Shown one piece after another: positions 24,059 to 32,628 of a DNA stretch of 64,000 bases. The notes under the pieces were generated by a model, which was given only the letters and a program-made list of their open reading frames with translations, did not search any database and had not been told where the DNA came from. The stretch spans positions 186,001 through 250,000 of the forward strand of contig OW568896.1 in assembly GCA_938743325.2 (NCBI GenBank). The letters run 5' to 3'. Each line of letters begins with the position of its first letter. The first letter of the stretch is position 1. Made by a program: the position numbers and the translations under genes. This DNA comes from Pycnococcus provasolii. Its lineage: Eukaryota > Chlorophyta > Pseudoscourfieldiophyceae > Pseudoscourfieldiales > Pycnococcaceae.

Positions 24059-24484
24059 CCCGTGCGTGCGGCAATTACGCGCCAGGTCTGCGCTTCTCCG
24101 GCTTGGAATTCGACGGAGGAGGTGGTCCAGACGGCCGGCTACCCGTGGTTCGCGGAGCGAACACGATGAAGGTGTCCATGCTCCACACAGCAGGCGACGC
24201 CCCCGTCCGCAACCGCGAGCGCGTGCGAGCCCCCGGCGGCCTATCAAAGAGGCGTGGAAACCTCTCATCCTCCTGGCACGTGACTCTCGCGGGCTCTCGC
24301 AGTGGGACGGCATATGCGCTCAAAACACGAGTGACTGAGTGCGTGACCCGCCCAACCCCTAATCCTACCTCGTCCTTTTCGCGCACTGTTCGCGCACCTT
24401 CCTCCTCCGTCCTCCGTCGTCGTCCCTTCCCCGGGTTTGACCGCGCCACCTCGGCCACTCTCCGCGTCGTCAGTCAGTAGTTCT
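24059..24484. other. Intergenic / possible continuation of upstream gene
   Basis: GC-rich, with competing open frames on both strands and none convincing. Near 24352 lies a telobox-like CCAACCCCTAATCC, followed by CCTCCGTC-rich leader DNA before the WD40 gene. Confidence 0.3.
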
Positions 24485-27400
24485 ATGAACGTCGCGTCCG
24501 CGCCGGCGGCGTCGCGTGGCGGCCGAGGTGAACGCACCGGCGCGTTCACCTCGGGCAAGAGCTTCGCGACCGTCACAGACGCCTTAAGCCTTAAATCCGC
24601 CTTAAGGTGCGTCGCCGAAGGAGCGTCGCTGCTCTATGCGTCCACGAGGGACGGAATCGTCTCGTGGGACGCGGAGCCTTCGTCGTCGTCGTCGTCAGAG
24701 ACTTCCTCGTCCAAGCAGCAGAAAATGGTCGTTCCGCGCGACGCGAGAGATATGGCAACGTGCCTCTGCGTCATCGACGGAAACGACCTGTGGCTAGGAC
24801 TCGGGAGCGGGCAGCTGTGCGTGTACCAAGCAAGTGACGGACAACTCAAGCAAAAACCTTTCGCTGCGCACAAGGGCGCTGTTAAGGTGCTCGCGGAGGT
24901 GAGGCACTCGCACGGCGGCTATGGGCACAGGCAGTCGGCGGACTTTAGCAGTGCGTCGGGGGTCGCCGGCCGTGCCGTTGTCGCCAGCGGAGGCGACGAC
25001 TTCGTGCTACGCCTGTGGAACGTGCTCGGCGCCCCGCTCGCCGCATTCCACGCAAGTCACGGCGCGGTGGAAAGCGTACTGTCGTGGCCCGCGGCGCCGC
25101 CGACAACAACAGCGCTGTGGGCTGGTAGTGGCGATGGAAGCTTGCTCGTCTGTGCGGACATCAATGCCGCCGTGGTGGCACATAGCTCAACCTTAGACGA
25201 ACCCACGGATGCTAACGAAGCGATGGCTGTCCACGCCAAGGCGAATGCGTCTGGCAAGGCGCTTTCCACCATGCACTTCGTGGGTATCGAGCATACGGGC
25301 AAATCAGATGATCAGGTGTGGGCGGGTACAGACGACGGGAAAATTCTCGTGTTCTCCGCAGACAGCGCCGCGAAGCTGAAGGAAATACCTAACGCGCACG
25401 CTGGGCGAGTCTCCGCGCTCGCGTGTGCTGGCGACGCGGTGTGGAGCGGAGGTGCGGACCACCTCGTGCGCGCATTTCGCGCGTCCAGTGCCGAACCTTT
25501 GTATACGGTGGGAAATCTTGGTGGCTTCGTCGTCGGCATTGTGCAGCCGGCTGTGGACACGTGGAGCCTTTGGTGCTTCACGCAGAACAGCATTCGCGTC
25601 TACACCGCGCGCGACCTGTACGAAGGCGCGATGCGAAGACACTCGAATGCCTCGAAAAGGGTTGAGGAACTTGAAGATCGCGTCGAGGACCTTAAGCGTC
25701 TGCATGGCACGGAGACACAGCGACTTGAGGACCAATTGAGCTCGAAAAATCAGGAGGCGGATGCTAGTCGAAAGAAGCTCGAGGATGTGCAGTCGGAACG
25801 TGATAAGCAATCTGCCGCACGTGAGGCGGCGGAGGCTGAGATGCGCTCGACGAGTACTGCGGCTGAGGAGAAAGAGCGAATTGCGGAGGAAGCGCGCAAG
25901 AGGCTCGAGGCGGAACTCACTGCTGAACGCGAAGCTTCGAGGCGCACAGCCTCGAAGCTTGAGGAGGAGCGAGAGAACATGCGCAACCAGCTTCAAAAGG
26001 AGATGGAGGAGGTCAGAAAACAGTCGTCCGAAAGCTCGGAGGATAGTGGACGCGCTAAGCGCGTGCTTGAGAAAATGAATCGCGATCTGGAAATGCAACG
26101 CAATTCCGAACGCGCGGAGAAAAAGAGGCTCGAGGAGCTTAAGAAGCAGCTCGAGGAAGAGGCGGAAAAACAAAAGAATAGGAGCCAAAAACTAGAACAA
26201 GAAAAAGCTGCCCAAGAAAAGCGCGCGGCGGAGCTGGAGGAGGAACGCGAGCGCATTCGTCGCGAGCTTCAAGACGAGCTTACGGCGCGCACGGGTGACC
26301 TGGAGAGCGAGTCGCGGCGTCGTACGGAGCTCGAGGCTGAGCGCGAGCGTCTTGAGTCTCTTCGTCAGCAGCTTGAGGAGGAGAAGGCTGCAGAGCACGA
26401 GGCTGGTCAGAAGCGCGCGACGGAGCTGGAGGAGGAACGCGAGCGCATTCGCCGCGAGCTTCAAGACGAGCTTGCGGCGCGCACGGGTGACCTGGAGAGC
26501 GAGTCGCGGCGTCGTACGGAGCTCGAGGCTGAGCGCGAGCGTCTTGAGTCTCTTCGTCAGCAGCTTGAGGAGGAGAAGGACGCGGAGTCTCGGGAGAAGA
26601 TGGAGCTGCAGGAACTTCGCAAGCGCCTGGAGGAGGAGAAGGCTGCAGAGCACGAGGCTGGTCAGAAGCGCGCGACGGAGCTGGAGGAGGAACGCGAGCG
26701 CATTCGCCGCGAGCTTCAAGACGAGCTTGCAGCGCGCACGGGTGACCTGGAGAGCGAGTCGCGGCGTCGTACGGAGCTCGAGGCTGAGCGCGAGCGTCTT
26801 GAGTCTCTTCGTCAGCAGCTTGAGGAGGAGAAGGACGCGGAGTCTCGGGAGAAGATGGAGCTGCAGGAACTTCGCAAGCGCCTGGAGGAGGAGAAGGCTG
26901 CAGAGCACGAGGCTGGTCAGAAGCGCGCGGCGGAGCTGGAGGAGGAACGCGAGCGCATTCGCCGCGAGCTTCAAGACGAGCTTGCAGCGCGCACGGGTGA
27001 CCTGGAGAGCGAGTCGCGGCGTCGTACGGAGCTCGAGGCTGAGCGCGAGCGTCTTGAGTCTCTTCGTCAGCAGCTTGAGGAGGAGAAGGACGCGGAGTCT
27101 CGGGAGAAGATGGAGCTGCAGGAACTTCGCAAGCGCCTGGAGGAGGAGAAGGCTGCAGAGCACGAGGCTGGTCAGAAGCGCGCGGCGGAGCTGGAGGAGG
27201 AACGCGAGCGCATTCGCCGCGAGCTTCAAGACGAGCTTGCAGCGCGCACGGGTGACCTGGAGAGCGAGTCGCGGCGTCGTACGGAGCTCGAGGCTGAGCG
27301 CGAGCGTCTTGAGTCTCTTCGTCAGCAGCTTGAGGAGGAGAAGGCTGCAGAGCACGAGGCTGGTCAGAAGCGCGCGACGGAGCTGGAGGAGGAACGCGAG

Positions 27401-28672
27401 CGCATTCGTCGCGAGCTTCAAGACGAGCTTGCAGCGCGCACGGGTGACCTGGAGAGCGAGTCGCGGCGTCGTACGGAGCTTGAGGCTGAGCGCGAGCGTC
27501 TTGAGTCTCTTCGTCAGCAGCTTGAGGAGGAGAAGGACGCGGAGTCTCGGGAGAAGAAACGTCTCGAGGAGCAAAACGCTGCGGAGGTATCTCGCCTTTC
27601 TGATATCGAGAAAGCTCGCGGGGAGCTGCAAGATGAGCTCGTGCGCCTCGGTGAGAGTGGTGCGCGTCGTGAAGCTAGCCTTGAGGCGGAGCGTGCTCGG
27701 TTGGAGGCTGAATCAAACCAGCGTGCGAGGGAAGCGGCCGATCTCAAGGCTCAGAATGATAGACTGATGGAAGAGCTGGCAGCCGCACGTGCAAGGTCCG
27801 ATGACGCGGAGCGTCGCTCCGACGGTGTACTCGATGCGATGTCGCGTCTGGAGGCAGAGGTTCGCAGGCTTCGTGAAGACGGTCCGCGCGAGTCGAGCGT
27901 TACCCACACGCACAGCCATGTCCTCGCACCTGGTTTAGCCCGTGGAAGCACGACAGATGCCGCCGCTGTTCCAAGTTCCAGCGAGCACCCCTCAGCAACC
28001 TTGGCTGTGCTCGAGGAGCGTGTGGCTGCGCTATCGGACGCGCTCGAGCGCAAGCGCACGAAGAAGCGCATTTACAAGGCAAAACTTGCCGAAGCTTCGC
28101 GTGATTCCGAGGCGCGTCTCAAGGCGCTGAATGAGGAGCTGAATCGCGCGCTGCAGGAGCGCTACGATGCGGTGACAGAATTGAAGCAGCTTCGAGGCAC
28201 GAAAGCGCGCTGCCTCGCGCTCGAGGGCGCACTGAAGCGTGCGGAAGCAGAGTATGGCACGCTGCTCGAGGAGATTGCGAGGCTGCGCACCGCGGACACG
28301 CTCCGCCGTCGGCTTGACCAGATTGGCCTCGTCCTCGGCGTGTCTGAAGCGGAAGAGGCGCTTGACGCTCTTGCGGGTGCACTGGAGGAGCGTGAGCGCA
28401 TCGCACATGAGCTTCGCGAGGCACGCGAGGACGTCTCGCGTCTTCGCGTCGAGCTCGCGGAAGCGACGTCGTCCGCACACGAGATGGCATTGCGCCATCA
28501 GGCGGTGGCGACGCGCGACGTGGCGGTGGGAACCTCCCCGAAGGATCGCCCGATTGAGGACTCGAAGGTTCTGCGGGACCGCGCTTCGCAAGCAAACGTC
28601 GAGGTGGGCGATCCACCCGCAGCTCGGCTGGGCGCAAGCGACCGTCGTGCGATCGCCGGTTGGAATGCATGA
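24485..28672 (+). CDS. WD40 plus long coiled-coil protein with internal tandem repeats
   Basis: 1395 aa, one exon. N-terminal WD40-like propeller at about residues 35-375: GASLLYASTRDGIVSWD, NDLWLGLGSGQLCVYQ, VVASGGDDFVLRLWNV, AHAGRVSALACAGDAVWSGG, LVRAFRASS. From about 390 to 1370 it is nearly pure coiled coil (Glu/Arg/Leu heptads). Within it, residues about 635-1020 are tandem copies of an 85-aa unit, two shortened to 64 aa. The C terminus is short and globular (DRRAIAGWNA). The mix of propeller and rod suggests a cytoskeletal or intracellular transport scaffold; no specific family assigned. First ATG at 24485; the frame is open slightly further without ATG. Confidence 0.82.
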   Translation: MNVASAPAASRGGRGERTGAFTSGKSFATVTDALSLKSALRCVAEGASLLYASTRDGIVSWDAEPSSSSSSETSSSKQQKMVVPRDARDMATCLCVIDGNDLWLGLGSGQLCVYQASDGQLKQKPFAAHKGAVKVLAEVRHSHGGYGHRQSADFSSASGVAGRAVVASGGDDFVLRLWNVLGAPLAAFHASHGAVESVLSWPAAPPTTTALWAGSGDGSLLVCADINAAVVAHSSTLDEPTDANEAMAVHAKANASGKALSTMHFVGIEHTGKSDDQVWAGTDDGKILVFSADSAAKLKEIPNAHAGRVSALACAGDAVWSGGADHLVRAFRASSAEPLYTVGNLGGFVVGIVQPAVDTWSLWCFTQNSIRVYTARDLYEGAMRRHSNASKRVEELEDRVEDLKRLHGTETQRLEDQLSSKNQEADASRKKLEDVQSERDKQSAAREAAEAEMRSTSTAAEEKERIAEEARKRLEAELTAEREASRRTASKLEEERENMRNQLQKEMEEVRKQSSESSEDSGRAKRVLEKMNRDLEMQRNSERAEKKRLEELKKQLEEEAEKQKNRSQKLEQEKAAQEKRAAELEEERERIRRELQDELTARTGDLESESRRRTELEAERERLESLRQQLEEEKAAEHEAGQKRATELEEERERIRRELQDELAARTGDLESESRRRTELEAERERLESLRQQLEEEKDAESREKMELQELRKRLEEEKAAEHEAGQKRATELEEERERIRRELQDELAARTGDLESESRRRTELEAERERLESLRQQLEEEKDAESREKMELQELRKRLEEEKAAEHEAGQKRAAELEEERERIRRELQDELAARTGDLESESRRRTELEAERERLESLRQQLEEEKDAESREKMELQELRKRLEEEKAAEHEAGQKRAAELEEERERIRRELQDELAARTGDLESESRRRTELEAERERLESLRQQLEEEKAAEHEAGQKRATELEEERERIRRELQDELAARTGDLESESRRRTELEAERERLESLRQQLEEEKDAESREKKRLEEQNAAEVSRLSDIEKARGELQDELVRLGESGARREASLEAERARLEAESNQRAREAADLKAQNDRLMEELAAARARSDDAERRSDGVLDAMSRLEAEVRRLREDGPRESSVTHTHSHVLAPGLARGSTTDAAAVPSSSEHPSATLAVLEERVAALSDALERKRTKKRIYKAKLAEASRDSEARLKALNEELNRALQERYDAVTELKQLRGTKARCLALEGALKRAEAEYGTLLEEIARLRTADTLRRRLDQIGLVLGVSEAEEALDALAGALEERERIAHELREAREDVSRLRVELAEATSSAHEMALRHQAVATRDVAVGTSPKDRPIEDSKVLRDRASQANVEVGDPPAARLGASDRRAIAGWNA
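26387..27544 (+). repeat. In-frame 255-bp tandem repeats in coiled-coil gene
   Basis: Unit starts (GCTGCAGAGCACGAGG) at 26387, 26642, 26897, 27152 and 27344. Three intervals are exactly 255 bp and the last is 192 bp, lacking a 63-bp segment that codes for 21 residues (DAESREKMELQELRKRLEEE type). A partial earlier copy begins near 26218. Copies differ by only a few bases, so the array is recent or homogenised. All units keep frame. Confidence 0.95.
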
Positions 28673-30074: not shown

Positions 30075-30137
30075 CCCCTAACCCTAACCCCTAATTAATG
30101 GATGAGGATTCTGCCTTAACCCCTAACCCTAACCCGA
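30075..30137 (+). promoter_or_regulatory. Telobox cluster in phytoene synthase divergent promoter
   Basis: Two clusters, CCCCTAACCCTAACCCCTAA at 30075-30094 and TAACCCCTAACCCTAACCCG at 30117-30136, lie between the divergent gene start at 30027 and the ATG at 30219. Confidence 0.5.
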
Positions 30138-30218: not shown

Positions 30219-31997
30219 ATGCCTTTATCGATGGCGTCGTCCATGTCCATGTCCGCTCCTAGGTATGGACGTCGTGGTGGTGTTCACGGTGTTCTTGGAG
30301 GTGGTGTTCTACGTGGAGAGTGTTGGCGTCTTCCCTTCACAGGGCGTCCTTCATCATACTCATCACCGTCACTATTTGTGGTCACCATGAGTCGTCGTCA
30401 TCGTCCCTATTCTCGTTCTGGTTTGGACGTCGTCATGTCGTCGTCCTCGGATGTAGTGGATGTGGGGGATACCTTGAAGGCATACGCCTACTGCGCGCAA
30501 GTCACACGCCGTTCCAGCGCCACGTTCCACCTCGCGGCGTCGCTCGGACCTGACGACGTGCGTGACCGCATATTCGCGCTGTACGCATTTTGCAGGGCGC
30601 TCGACGAGGCGACGGACGGCGACAATCTGTCCCTAAATGAGAGCAAACAAAAGATCGATAAACTCGAGCGAGACCTCAGGGCCGCGTTCAGCGACGACGA
30701 CGATGCCGCACTTGCAAACTGTGGTTGCGAGGCTGTCGCGCTGGCAGACACCGTTCGGAGAACGCCGAGCCTGTCCATGCAGCCGTTTGAGGAGATGATC
30801 CAAGGCATGCGATCCGACCTGCGGGACGATGTACGTTTCAACACGTGGGACGACGACCTCAGAACGTACTGCTACCGAGTCGCAGGTGTCGTCGGCCTCA
30901 TGTGCGTTGCCGTTCTCGGCACGAAAAGAGAAGCAAATGAAAAAGACGCACAGGAAGCTGCCGTGGACCTTGGCATAGCTCTGCAACTCGTGAACGTGAT
31001 TCGCGACGTCGGCGAGGACGCCAGAGAAAGGCGCCGGCTCTACTTGCCACTCGATTCAGTCAATCGCGTTGGACTCGCGGCAGAGGAGCTGTTCTCATCA
31101 GAGTACACACCAGACGAGAGGTATGAACGGCTCGTCGAGGGCGAGATCCAGCGTGCCTTGCTCTACTTCCGACGCTCGCTAAGGGGATTGCCGGCGCTCC
31201 CGCTGTTCGCTCGCATTCCTACAATGGCTGCCGCTGATATATACGGAGCACTCTTGGCGAAGGTGCGAATGAACGGATACGACAACCTGTCGCAACGTGC
31301 TTACACGACTTCGTCGGAAAAAATCTTGGCTCTTCCAGGCATCCTCTTGCGCGCAATCGGACGCACGCCAACGCTGAAGGTGTGCGGCGACAGTGCGTAT
31401 ACGAACTGGCTTGCCAAGCCTGAGCCAGCGAGATCGCTTGTGCAGGACCTGCTCGTAATGGTGGAACTTAGCAACAAGAGCGACGACGACCATGCGGTGG
31501 AGGCTGCGGCGAAGGCGCTCGAGTGTTGCAATCCGTGCACGTCGCCTGCGCGTGACTCGTTGCTGCTCGGCGAGTGGGAACTTGTGTGGTCAAGTCCAGG
31601 GAGCGACTTTGCACGTCTCGAAAGGCGCCTGCGCGGAGGTCCGCTTGAGGGCCAGGCGAAAAGCTTGCAGGAGATTGGGAACGGATACTCGCGCAACGTG
31701 GTTGTTTTTCCAGGAGATTTTGTGCGCGTCGTCATCACTGCAACGGTGGACGCAGACTCCGTGAAGGTTGACACTACAAACGTGGGTCCTCCCTACACCT
31801 TCGAGCTGCAAATTGCGGGCATAAGCATTCCGCTCAAGTTTCCTGCGGAGTTTGCGCAAGAACGCACGTGCTTGCGCACACTCTATCTGGACGAAGACTT
31901 AAAAATTAGCCGCGTTGGCGCATTCGGCGAGCGCACGACGGAGGGCAGTCTCTTCGTGCACGTGCGTCATCGCGCGGAGCAATCACGTGACTTGTAA
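30219..31997 (+). CDS. PSY: Phytoene synthase fused to a PAP/fibrillin (plastoglobulin) domain
   Basis: 592 aa, one exon. Phytoene synthase condenses two GGPP to phytoene, the first committed carotenoid step, in plastids. Ser/Met-rich transit-like N terminus (about 1-85), then the synthase domain: YAYCAQVTRRSSATFHLAAS, FCRALDEATDGDN (first Asp motif), PFEEMIQGMRSDL, YCYRVAGVVGLMCVAVLGT, LVNVIRDVGEDARERRRLYL (second Asp motif), NGYDNLSQRAYTTSSEKILA. From about residue 410 a second domain reads like PAP/fibrillin: AAKALECCNPCTSPARDS, LLLGEWELVWSSPG, NVVVFPGDFVRVVITATVD, RTLYLDEDLKISRVGAFG, GSLFVHV. Fibrillins coat plastoglobules and thylakoids, so the tail could place the enzyme on lipid. First ATG at 30219. 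Confidence 0.9.
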   Translation: MPLSMASSMSMSAPRYGRRGGVHGVLGGGVLRGECWRLPFTGRPSSYSSPSLFVVTMSRRHRPYSRSGLDVVMSSSSDVVDVGDTLKAYAYCAQVTRRSSATFHLAASLGPDDVRDRIFALYAFCRALDEATDGDNLSLNESKQKIDKLERDLRAAFSDDDDAALANCGCEAVALADTVRRTPSLSMQPFEEMIQGMRSDLRDDVRFNTWDDDLRTYCYRVAGVVGLMCVAVLGTKREANEKDAQEAAVDLGIALQLVNVIRDVGEDARERRRLYLPLDSVNRVGLAAEELFSSEYTPDERYERLVEGEIQRALLYFRRSLRGLPALPLFARIPTMAAADIYGALLAKVRMNGYDNLSQRAYTTSSEKILALPGILLRAIGRTPTLKVCGDSAYTNWLAKPEPARSLVQDLLVMVELSNKSDDDHAVEAAAKALECCNPCTSPARDSLLLGEWELVWSSPGSDFARLERRLRGGPLEGQAKSLQEIGNGYSRNVVVFPGDFVRVVITATVDADSVKVDTTNVGPPYTFELQIAGISIPLKFPAEFAQERTCLRTLYLDEDLKISRVGAFGERTTEGSLFVHVRHRAEQSRDL

Positions 31998-32628
31998 TAC
32001 TAAAGTTTGAATTTGTACTGTATACTGAATTCTTTCTCAAACACGTATTGCCAACCTTAGTCATAATGCGGCTGGCGTATTGCGCGAGGGTCGCATCGCA
32101 TCGAGCCTGCGACACAGCGCTGAGCCTGGCCTGGGTTAGGGCTAGGGTTAGGTCTAGGGTTAGTTTTTTGCCGACCTGACCTGTTCCTGCGACCTCTTTT
32201 GAGATGTGACAGCATCATCGACTTGCATCCCCGACCGTTAGGGACAGCAACCTCGACCTGTACGGGTAGTTTCGACCTTTTACGATAGTGACAATGTAAC
32301 CTTGCCCAATTAGTCTATCAACGCCGGATAACAGTCGGGCATCGGCATCGGGAGAAATCGGGGGATGTGATGGCGATGGGAATGATCGCATTTTCTCCGA
32401 CGTAATCGCTCGACCAAAGACTCACTTTCCCGGGGGATGTGATCGCAGTTCTCCTCCGACCTAATCGCTCGACCCAAACGGTTGCTTTTCTCGACCAATT
32501 CAATCAATAATTCCGTTCGGTCTCAGGCATCAGGAGTCGCTTTTATGTGTACGGGTAGGGCCGGCAACGTTGTTGTTGGGCCTTGCACACACTTGCACAC
32601 ACTTGCACGCACACACACACGCCGTAGG
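31998..32628. other. Intergenic, 0.6 kb
   Basis: No gene seen. It contains reverse telobox DNA at 32132-32163, an imperfect direct repeat around CTCGACC...TTTTC / GGGGGATGTGATCGCA near 32365-32490, and a CACACTTGCACA repeat at about 32584-32622 just before the next ATG. Confidence 0.4.
32132..32163 (-). promoter_or_regulatory. Reverse-oriented telobox triplet
   Basis: GGGTTAGGG, TAGGGTTAGG and TAGGGTTAG in close series, opposite in orientation to the other teloboxes. They lie about 135 bases after the phytoene synthase stop and 470 bases before the next ATG. Confidence 0.4.

Follow-up and report, generated by a model that had tools for sequence, protein, structure and literature searches.

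Phytoene is insoluble in water, and the route by which it passes from its synthase to the membrane enzymes of the carotenoid pathway is poorly understood; it has been proposed that fibrillins, a kind of plastid lipid-associated protein, assist such enzymes. Pairings of this kind are described from plants. FBN5 of Arabidopsis and rice binds solanesyl diphosphate synthases, and it has been proposed to remove their hydrophobic product (PMC5507956), and a review describes the co-precipitation of FBN6 with phytoene synthase (PSY; PMC11580037). Here we analyse a 64,000-nucleotide stretch of the genome of the marine green alga Pycnococcus provasolii (contig OW568896.1, positions 186,001 to 250,000, forward strand; hereafter, the window), in which one gene encodes a PSY joined to a C-terminal fibrillin (PAP) domain. 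As a preceding sequence-only reading of this DNA had claimed, the two domains lie in a single reading frame. In the raw DNA the frame runs on the plus strand, without a stop, from an ATG at 30219 to a TAA at 31995-31997 (592 codons), its start codon presumably being this first ATG.

The segment past the PSY domain (31374-31994) stayed open in only 4 of 10,000 mononucleotide shuffles. GC content at third codon positions is 0.68 in the PSY part, 0.66 in the fibrillin part and 0.42 in the N-terminal stretch. Residues 1-78 contain 17 Ser and 10 Arg, with 1 Glu and 2 Asp, and were modelled with a predicted local distance difference test score (pLDDT) below 50. Since such a Ser/Arg-rich, acid-poor composition resembles that of plastid transit peptides, this stretch is a probable transit peptide and the protein is probably targeted to the plastid.

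By sequence, the enzyme half is a phytoene synthase with both Asp-rich motifs (DEATD and DVGED), again in agreement with the sequence-only reading. The Pfam SQS_PSY profile matched residues 97-364 with 211.6 bits (cut-off 26; E 2.2e-62), covering profile positions 2-260 of 263. Residues R126, D129, D133, Q256, N259, D263 and D267, which we take to have catalytic roles, are invariant in a 38-row alignment. NCBIfam gave six matches, all under their curated cut-offs, the best of them to the cyanobacterial PSY model (212.9 of 550 bits). Searches of the own genome, a 46-contig assembly of 32,333,900 bases, revealed a second, ordinary cyanobacterial-type PSY on contig C16 (P0123), which shares 39% identity with the fused domain and in which the Pfam profile found no fibrillin match.

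The C-terminal half matched Pfam PAP_fibrillin (PF04755) at residues 417-565, with 38.2 bits (cut-off 22) and E 1.9e-9 in the whole protein, and with 41.9 bits and E 1.5e-10 when the C-terminal 232 residues were searched alone. On the 592-residue product both profiles thus matched above cut-off, the fibrillin match falling inside residues 410-590, where the domain had been expected, and the fibrillin blocks that had been picked out by reading, LECCNP, LLLGEWELVWSS and LYLDEDLKISR, were all found in the frame. The usual fibrillin ending, with the consensus TYLDxDxRxxRGDxGxxFV, reads LYLDEDLKISRVGAFGERTTEGSLFVHVR in the fusion protein: LYLDEDLKISR is retained, and R-VGAFGERTTEG stands in place of RGD-x-G. 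In the alignment this altered signature is common to the Pycnococcus fusion and to three further fusion proteins described below (P0002, P0003 and P0004).

The AlphaFold2 model of the fusion protein, made with the 38-row alignment (mean pLDDT 78.7, predicted template modelling score (pTM) 0.79), consists of two folded parts, namely the PSY fold and, following helices at 404-418 and 425-437, nine strands interrupted by a short helix. The Tetraselmis fusion gave a similar model (pLDDT 78.2, pTM 0.66). For the full-length proteins, the 50 PDB matches listed by each of two Foldseek searches and by VIA-align all concerned the PSY half and included no fibrillin chain; the matches listed were filled by the PSY half, and this result is thus not evidence against a fibrillin fold. 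A profile of 16 fibrillin rows from the own genome matched the PDB structures of FBN5 homologs, entries 9kaf and 9jwr, with E about 3e-26.

PAP_fibrillin matches in the own genome number at least 15, including the fusion; two of them, on contig C3, seem to be one frame. Within that genome, the separate frame nearest to the fused fibrillin domain is P0124 (contig C38, L024; 27% over 174 amino acids), in which the Pfam profile found no PAP_fibrillin match. By eye, P0124 (L024 1054-2022, G000:C38) has an N-terminal twin-arginine stretch resembling a thylakoid-lumen signal.

The same architecture, which the sequence-only reading had suggested looking for elsewhere, recurs in four further protein records: P0002 and P0003 (ENA), P0004 (Tetraselmis striata) and P0005 (Joint Genome Institute, JGI; partial). 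The protein search took in targets of 0.55-1.75 times the query length. With the C-terminal region as query, the 3296 candidates yielded three proteins with E ≤ 0.01, all three of which carry both Pfam domains; repeating the search with the Tetraselmis C-terminal region gave no additional protein. A profile of four fusions, for which 8000 candidates were scored, added P0005, whose last part stops aligning, perhaps due to an intron. Among the best 120 of the 615 matches to this profile, three contained PF04755, and P0004 was absent, though part of the query.

Overall identity to the Pycnococcus fusion (P0001) is 98% for P0002, which may well come from the same species, 74% for P0003 and 44% for P0004. 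For P0003 and P0004, Pfam matched only roughly the first third of the fibrillin profile, and the rest of the domain was identified by alignment to P0001. Against Tetraselmis, identity is 44.9% in the PSY domain (123/274), 37.8% in the linker (17/45) and 53.9% in the fibrillin domain (89/165), with 65.2% in the C-terminal block (45/69); the corresponding values for PSY, linker and fibrillin against P0003 are 72.0%, 66.7% and 78.7%. The linker itself aligns in all four rows (P0001-P0004), with some gaps in Tetraselmis. The fibrillin part is thus better conserved than the PSY, suggesting that the domain is under constraint, and the presence of the same fusion in a green alga as distant as Tetraselmis argues for a conserved design rather than an accident. 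The PSY-fibrillin fusion is confirmed as real.

To place the enzyme, we built a PSY tree of 33 rows, comprising five fusions, eight unfused enzymes of the same type (two of them named Micromonas), the C16 gene, 10 of 80 further loci and nine other bacteria. P0007, a near-copy of P0006, and P0014, whose middle is out of register with P0011, were excluded from the trees, and P0014 also from alignments A2 and A5. The five fused and eight unfused PSYs form one clade (support 99/96), which is sister to the cyanobacterial-type PSYs (100/99), and the C16 PSY groups with cyanobacteria (96/95). The fused enzyme is therefore a second, divergent PSY beside the ordinary C16 gene, a point that the sequence-only reading had overlooked. 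Within the clade, the three Pycnococcus-type fusions group with unfused rows (100/99), apart from Tetraselmis and P0005. Indeed, a single clade of all fused PSY domains was rejected by the approximately unbiased (AU) test (p 0.0004 with 33 rows; p 0.0025 before the 10 loci were added). A first tree, made without cyanobacteria, had split fused from unfused enzymes by one weak branch (72/85), with the C16 gene on a long branch, and is superseded. In that tree four rows named HpnD or squalene synthase occupied a long branch of their own (100/100). Judged by sequence, the fused domain lies closer to phytoene synthases than to synthases of the squalene or HpnD type.

The fibrillin tree held 19 domains, five from the fusions and 14 from the own genome, frames longer than 300 amino acids being cut to their last 260 residues. 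The fibrillin domains of the fusions form a clade (97/95), which P0124 joins with a support of only 86/56; 10 of the 16 inner branches of this tree are open.

The second PSYs of Micromonas commoda (P0008) and M. pusilla (P0013), which fall in the same clade as the fused PSY (99/96), are 49% and 47% identical to its PSY domain. They stop 9 and 11 residues, respectively, past the LPG that opens the junction, that is, right after the PSY domain, and the Pfam profile found no PAP_fibrillin match in either. Two PSY genes are reported for Micromonas and Ostreococcus (PMC10269666). The simplest account would be one old fusion, whose fibrillin part was later lost in the Micromonas line. Alternatively, PSY may have been fused twice to fibrillins of one kind, since the unfused fibrillins in the tree are all from the own genome. 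Tran et al. reportedly described two PSY classes in 2009, and we infer that the fused clade is the second of them.

Taken together, the results make it fairly probable that the gene encodes a nuclear-coded, plastid-targeted, divergent green-algal PSY provided with a lipocalin-like fibrillin domain in cis, for uptake of the hydrophobic product or for docking at a plastid lipid surface. The fibrillin domain is fused at the natural end of the enzyme. The PSY domain would join two molecules of geranylgeranyl diphosphate to give phytoene, and the fibrillin barrel, acting in cis, would take up or shelter the water-insoluble phytoene. The barrel would then present phytoene to a lipid surface of the plastid, or dock the enzyme there; that surface might be the thylakoid, the envelope or the plastoglobule. 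By analogy, the fusion would make permanent a partnership known from plants, in which FBN5 pairs with solanesyl diphosphate synthase and FBN6 with PSY as separate proteins, and the C16 enzyme probably supplies housekeeping carotenoids. The known pairings of fibrillins with prenyl enzymes speak for product hand-over or docking at a membrane no less than for anchoring to lipid droplets.

Some results weigh against this proposal. The replacement of RGD-x-G by a longer conserved block suggests that the ligand or partner of the fused fibrillin may differ, and a sequence search of the PDB with the fused fibrillin domain alone gave no fibrillin. In addition, PSY2 of Dunaliella salina, a duplicate algal PSY, has hardly any activity (PMC10269666), so that the second PSY may be weak. 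A further step, which we put forward only tentatively and consider rather doubtful, is that the second green-algal PSY class originated as a fusion of PSY with fibrillin, the barrel being a built-in acceptor that draws phytoene from the enzyme and passes it to the membrane, and that the Micromonas line dropped the domain.

The sequence-only reading had supposed that the fusion hard-wires the first carotenoid step to lipid droplets, fibrillins being plastoglobule coat proteins. The premise holds for some of them, as seven of the Arabidopsis fibrillins belong to the core proteins of plastoglobules (PMC10160619, PMC11580037), but FBN5 is stromal, and FBN3, 6, 9 and 11 are assigned to thylakoids (PMC11580037); with fibrillins also in the stroma and thylakoids, the supposition goes too far. 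The idea taken as a plastoglobule tether, in which the fibrillin domain serves solely as an address that keeps PSY at plastoglobules, without a part in product handling, gains from the core proteins and from rice PSY2, which targets plastoglobules (PMC10264786). However, rice PSY2 is steered there by its own hydrophobic regions (PMC10264786), other fibrillins are stromal or thylakoid, and the fused domain is without the usual C-terminal RGD-x-G; we consider such a tether unlikely.

The same altered ending, common to P0002, P0003 and P0004 too, speaks for a different role, in which the fibrillin no longer binds lipid and, as a regulatory or scaffold domain, contacts other enzymes of the pathway or adjusts how PSY oligomerises, the PSY perhaps being a weak one. 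The high conservation of the C-terminal block (45/69 to Tetraselmis) would fit a protein interface, and the low activity of D. salina PSY2 would be in keeping with such a role. Yet the catalytic residues are retained, and nine strands, as in fibrillin barrels, are still predicted, making this explanation quite improbable in our view. Finally, the gene has short telomere-like repeats on either side and a dispersed repeat next to it, a setting in which a gene-model or assembly artefact might have caused two neighbouring genes to be read as one. We rejected this explanation, which we regard as very improbable, because the raw DNA needs no intron to keep the frame open and the fusion recurs in Tetraselmis, ENA and JGI records; the linker that aligns in 4/4 rows and the like third-position GC of the two parts also speak against it.

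Features of the PSY-fibrillin fusion gene (positions in the window)
Feature	Position	Strand	Basis
Whole PSY-fibrillin fusion gene	30219..31997	+	592-codon frame, no intron needed, plus stop
N-terminal residues 1-78, putative plastid transit peptide	30219..30452	+	Composition and low model confidence
SQS_PSY domain, residues 97-364	30507..31310	+	Pfam and model
First Asp-rich motif DEATD, residues 129-133	30603..30617	+	Motif; 38-row alignment
Second Asp-rich motif DVGED, residues 263-267	31005..31019	+	Motif; 38-row alignment
Junction and linker, residues 365-416	31311..31466	+	Alignment
Fibrillin (PAP) domain, Pfam residues 417-565, modelled fold to ~584	31467..31976	+	Pfam, alignment, model
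Strongly conserved block QERT..LYLDEDLKISRVGAFGERTTEGSLFVHVR	31857..31967	+	Alignment; longer segment where fibrillins have RGD-x-G

The telomere-like repeats that flank the gene (30076-30135 and 32133-32163) are in opposite orientation, with CCCTAACCC upstream and its complement downstream; the telomere-like 9-mer occurs in 12 copies in the window versus 0.12 expected. The dispersed repeat directly downstream (32079-32309) has copies on contigs C7 (85%) and C34 (81%) and a partial one on C40 (76%). Fragments of the 3′ part of the fusion gene stand alone on other chromosomes, at G000:C6:757687-757804 (L029 4688-4805) and G000:C42:189817-189923 (L028 4318-4424). They are 118 and 107 bases long and 98% identical, one of them spans the stop codon and 3′ flank, and they look like recent copied pieces. 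Upstream of the gene, 24437-28672 holds a 1411-amino-acid frame with internal repeats, seen by eye, of a charged coiled-coil-like unit (EEERERIRRELQDELAARTGDLESESRRRTELEAERERL...). Elsewhere in the genome, G000:C19:154135-154774 (L027 4636-5275) encodes a phytochrome PHY domain and, immediately after it but in a different frame, the final third of a cryptochrome FAD-binding domain; this may be a fragment or variant of the phytochrome-cryptochrome fusion (dualchrome) known from Pycnococcus (PMC8209157).

The sequence-only reading did not recall the fusion as described, and we likewise found no description of a PSY-fibrillin fusion among the matches listed by text searches of openly licensed PMC papers. 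Lohscheider and Rio Bartulos are said to have surveyed algal fibrillins in 2016, and that survey may mention such fusions. The fused chain offers a stable enzyme-fibrillin pair that can be purified, crystallised and dissected; it also supports, on evolutionary grounds, a direct cooperation between PSY and fibrillin, and is a ready-made part for carotenoid engineering. If a fusion-born class is borne out, the fusion would document in nature that the loose pairing of PSY with fibrillin in land plants is both ancient and functional.

Compared with known systems, the fused PSY shares its family, motifs and presumed reaction with the cyanobacterial-type PSYs (P0123 and cyanobacterial CrtB), but belongs to a separate clade, and P0123 has no fibrillin match. 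Modular fibrillins, such as FBN11 with a kinase and FBN3-type proteins with an FHA domain (PMC11580037), likewise carry fibrillin within a multidomain protein, and an FHA-fibrillin protein is also encoded in the own genome (L007). Their partner, however, is a kinase or FHA domain, whereas that of the Pycnococcus fibrillin is a carotenoid enzyme; multidomain fibrillins are thus known, and PSY as a fibrillin partner is, as far as we have seen, new. The plant pairs of FBN5 with solanesyl diphosphate synthase and FBN6 with PSY likewise bring a fibrillin together with an enzyme of a long hydrophobic isoprenoid (PMC5507956, PMC11580037), but there two proteins bind each other, whereas in Pycnococcus both are parts of one chain.
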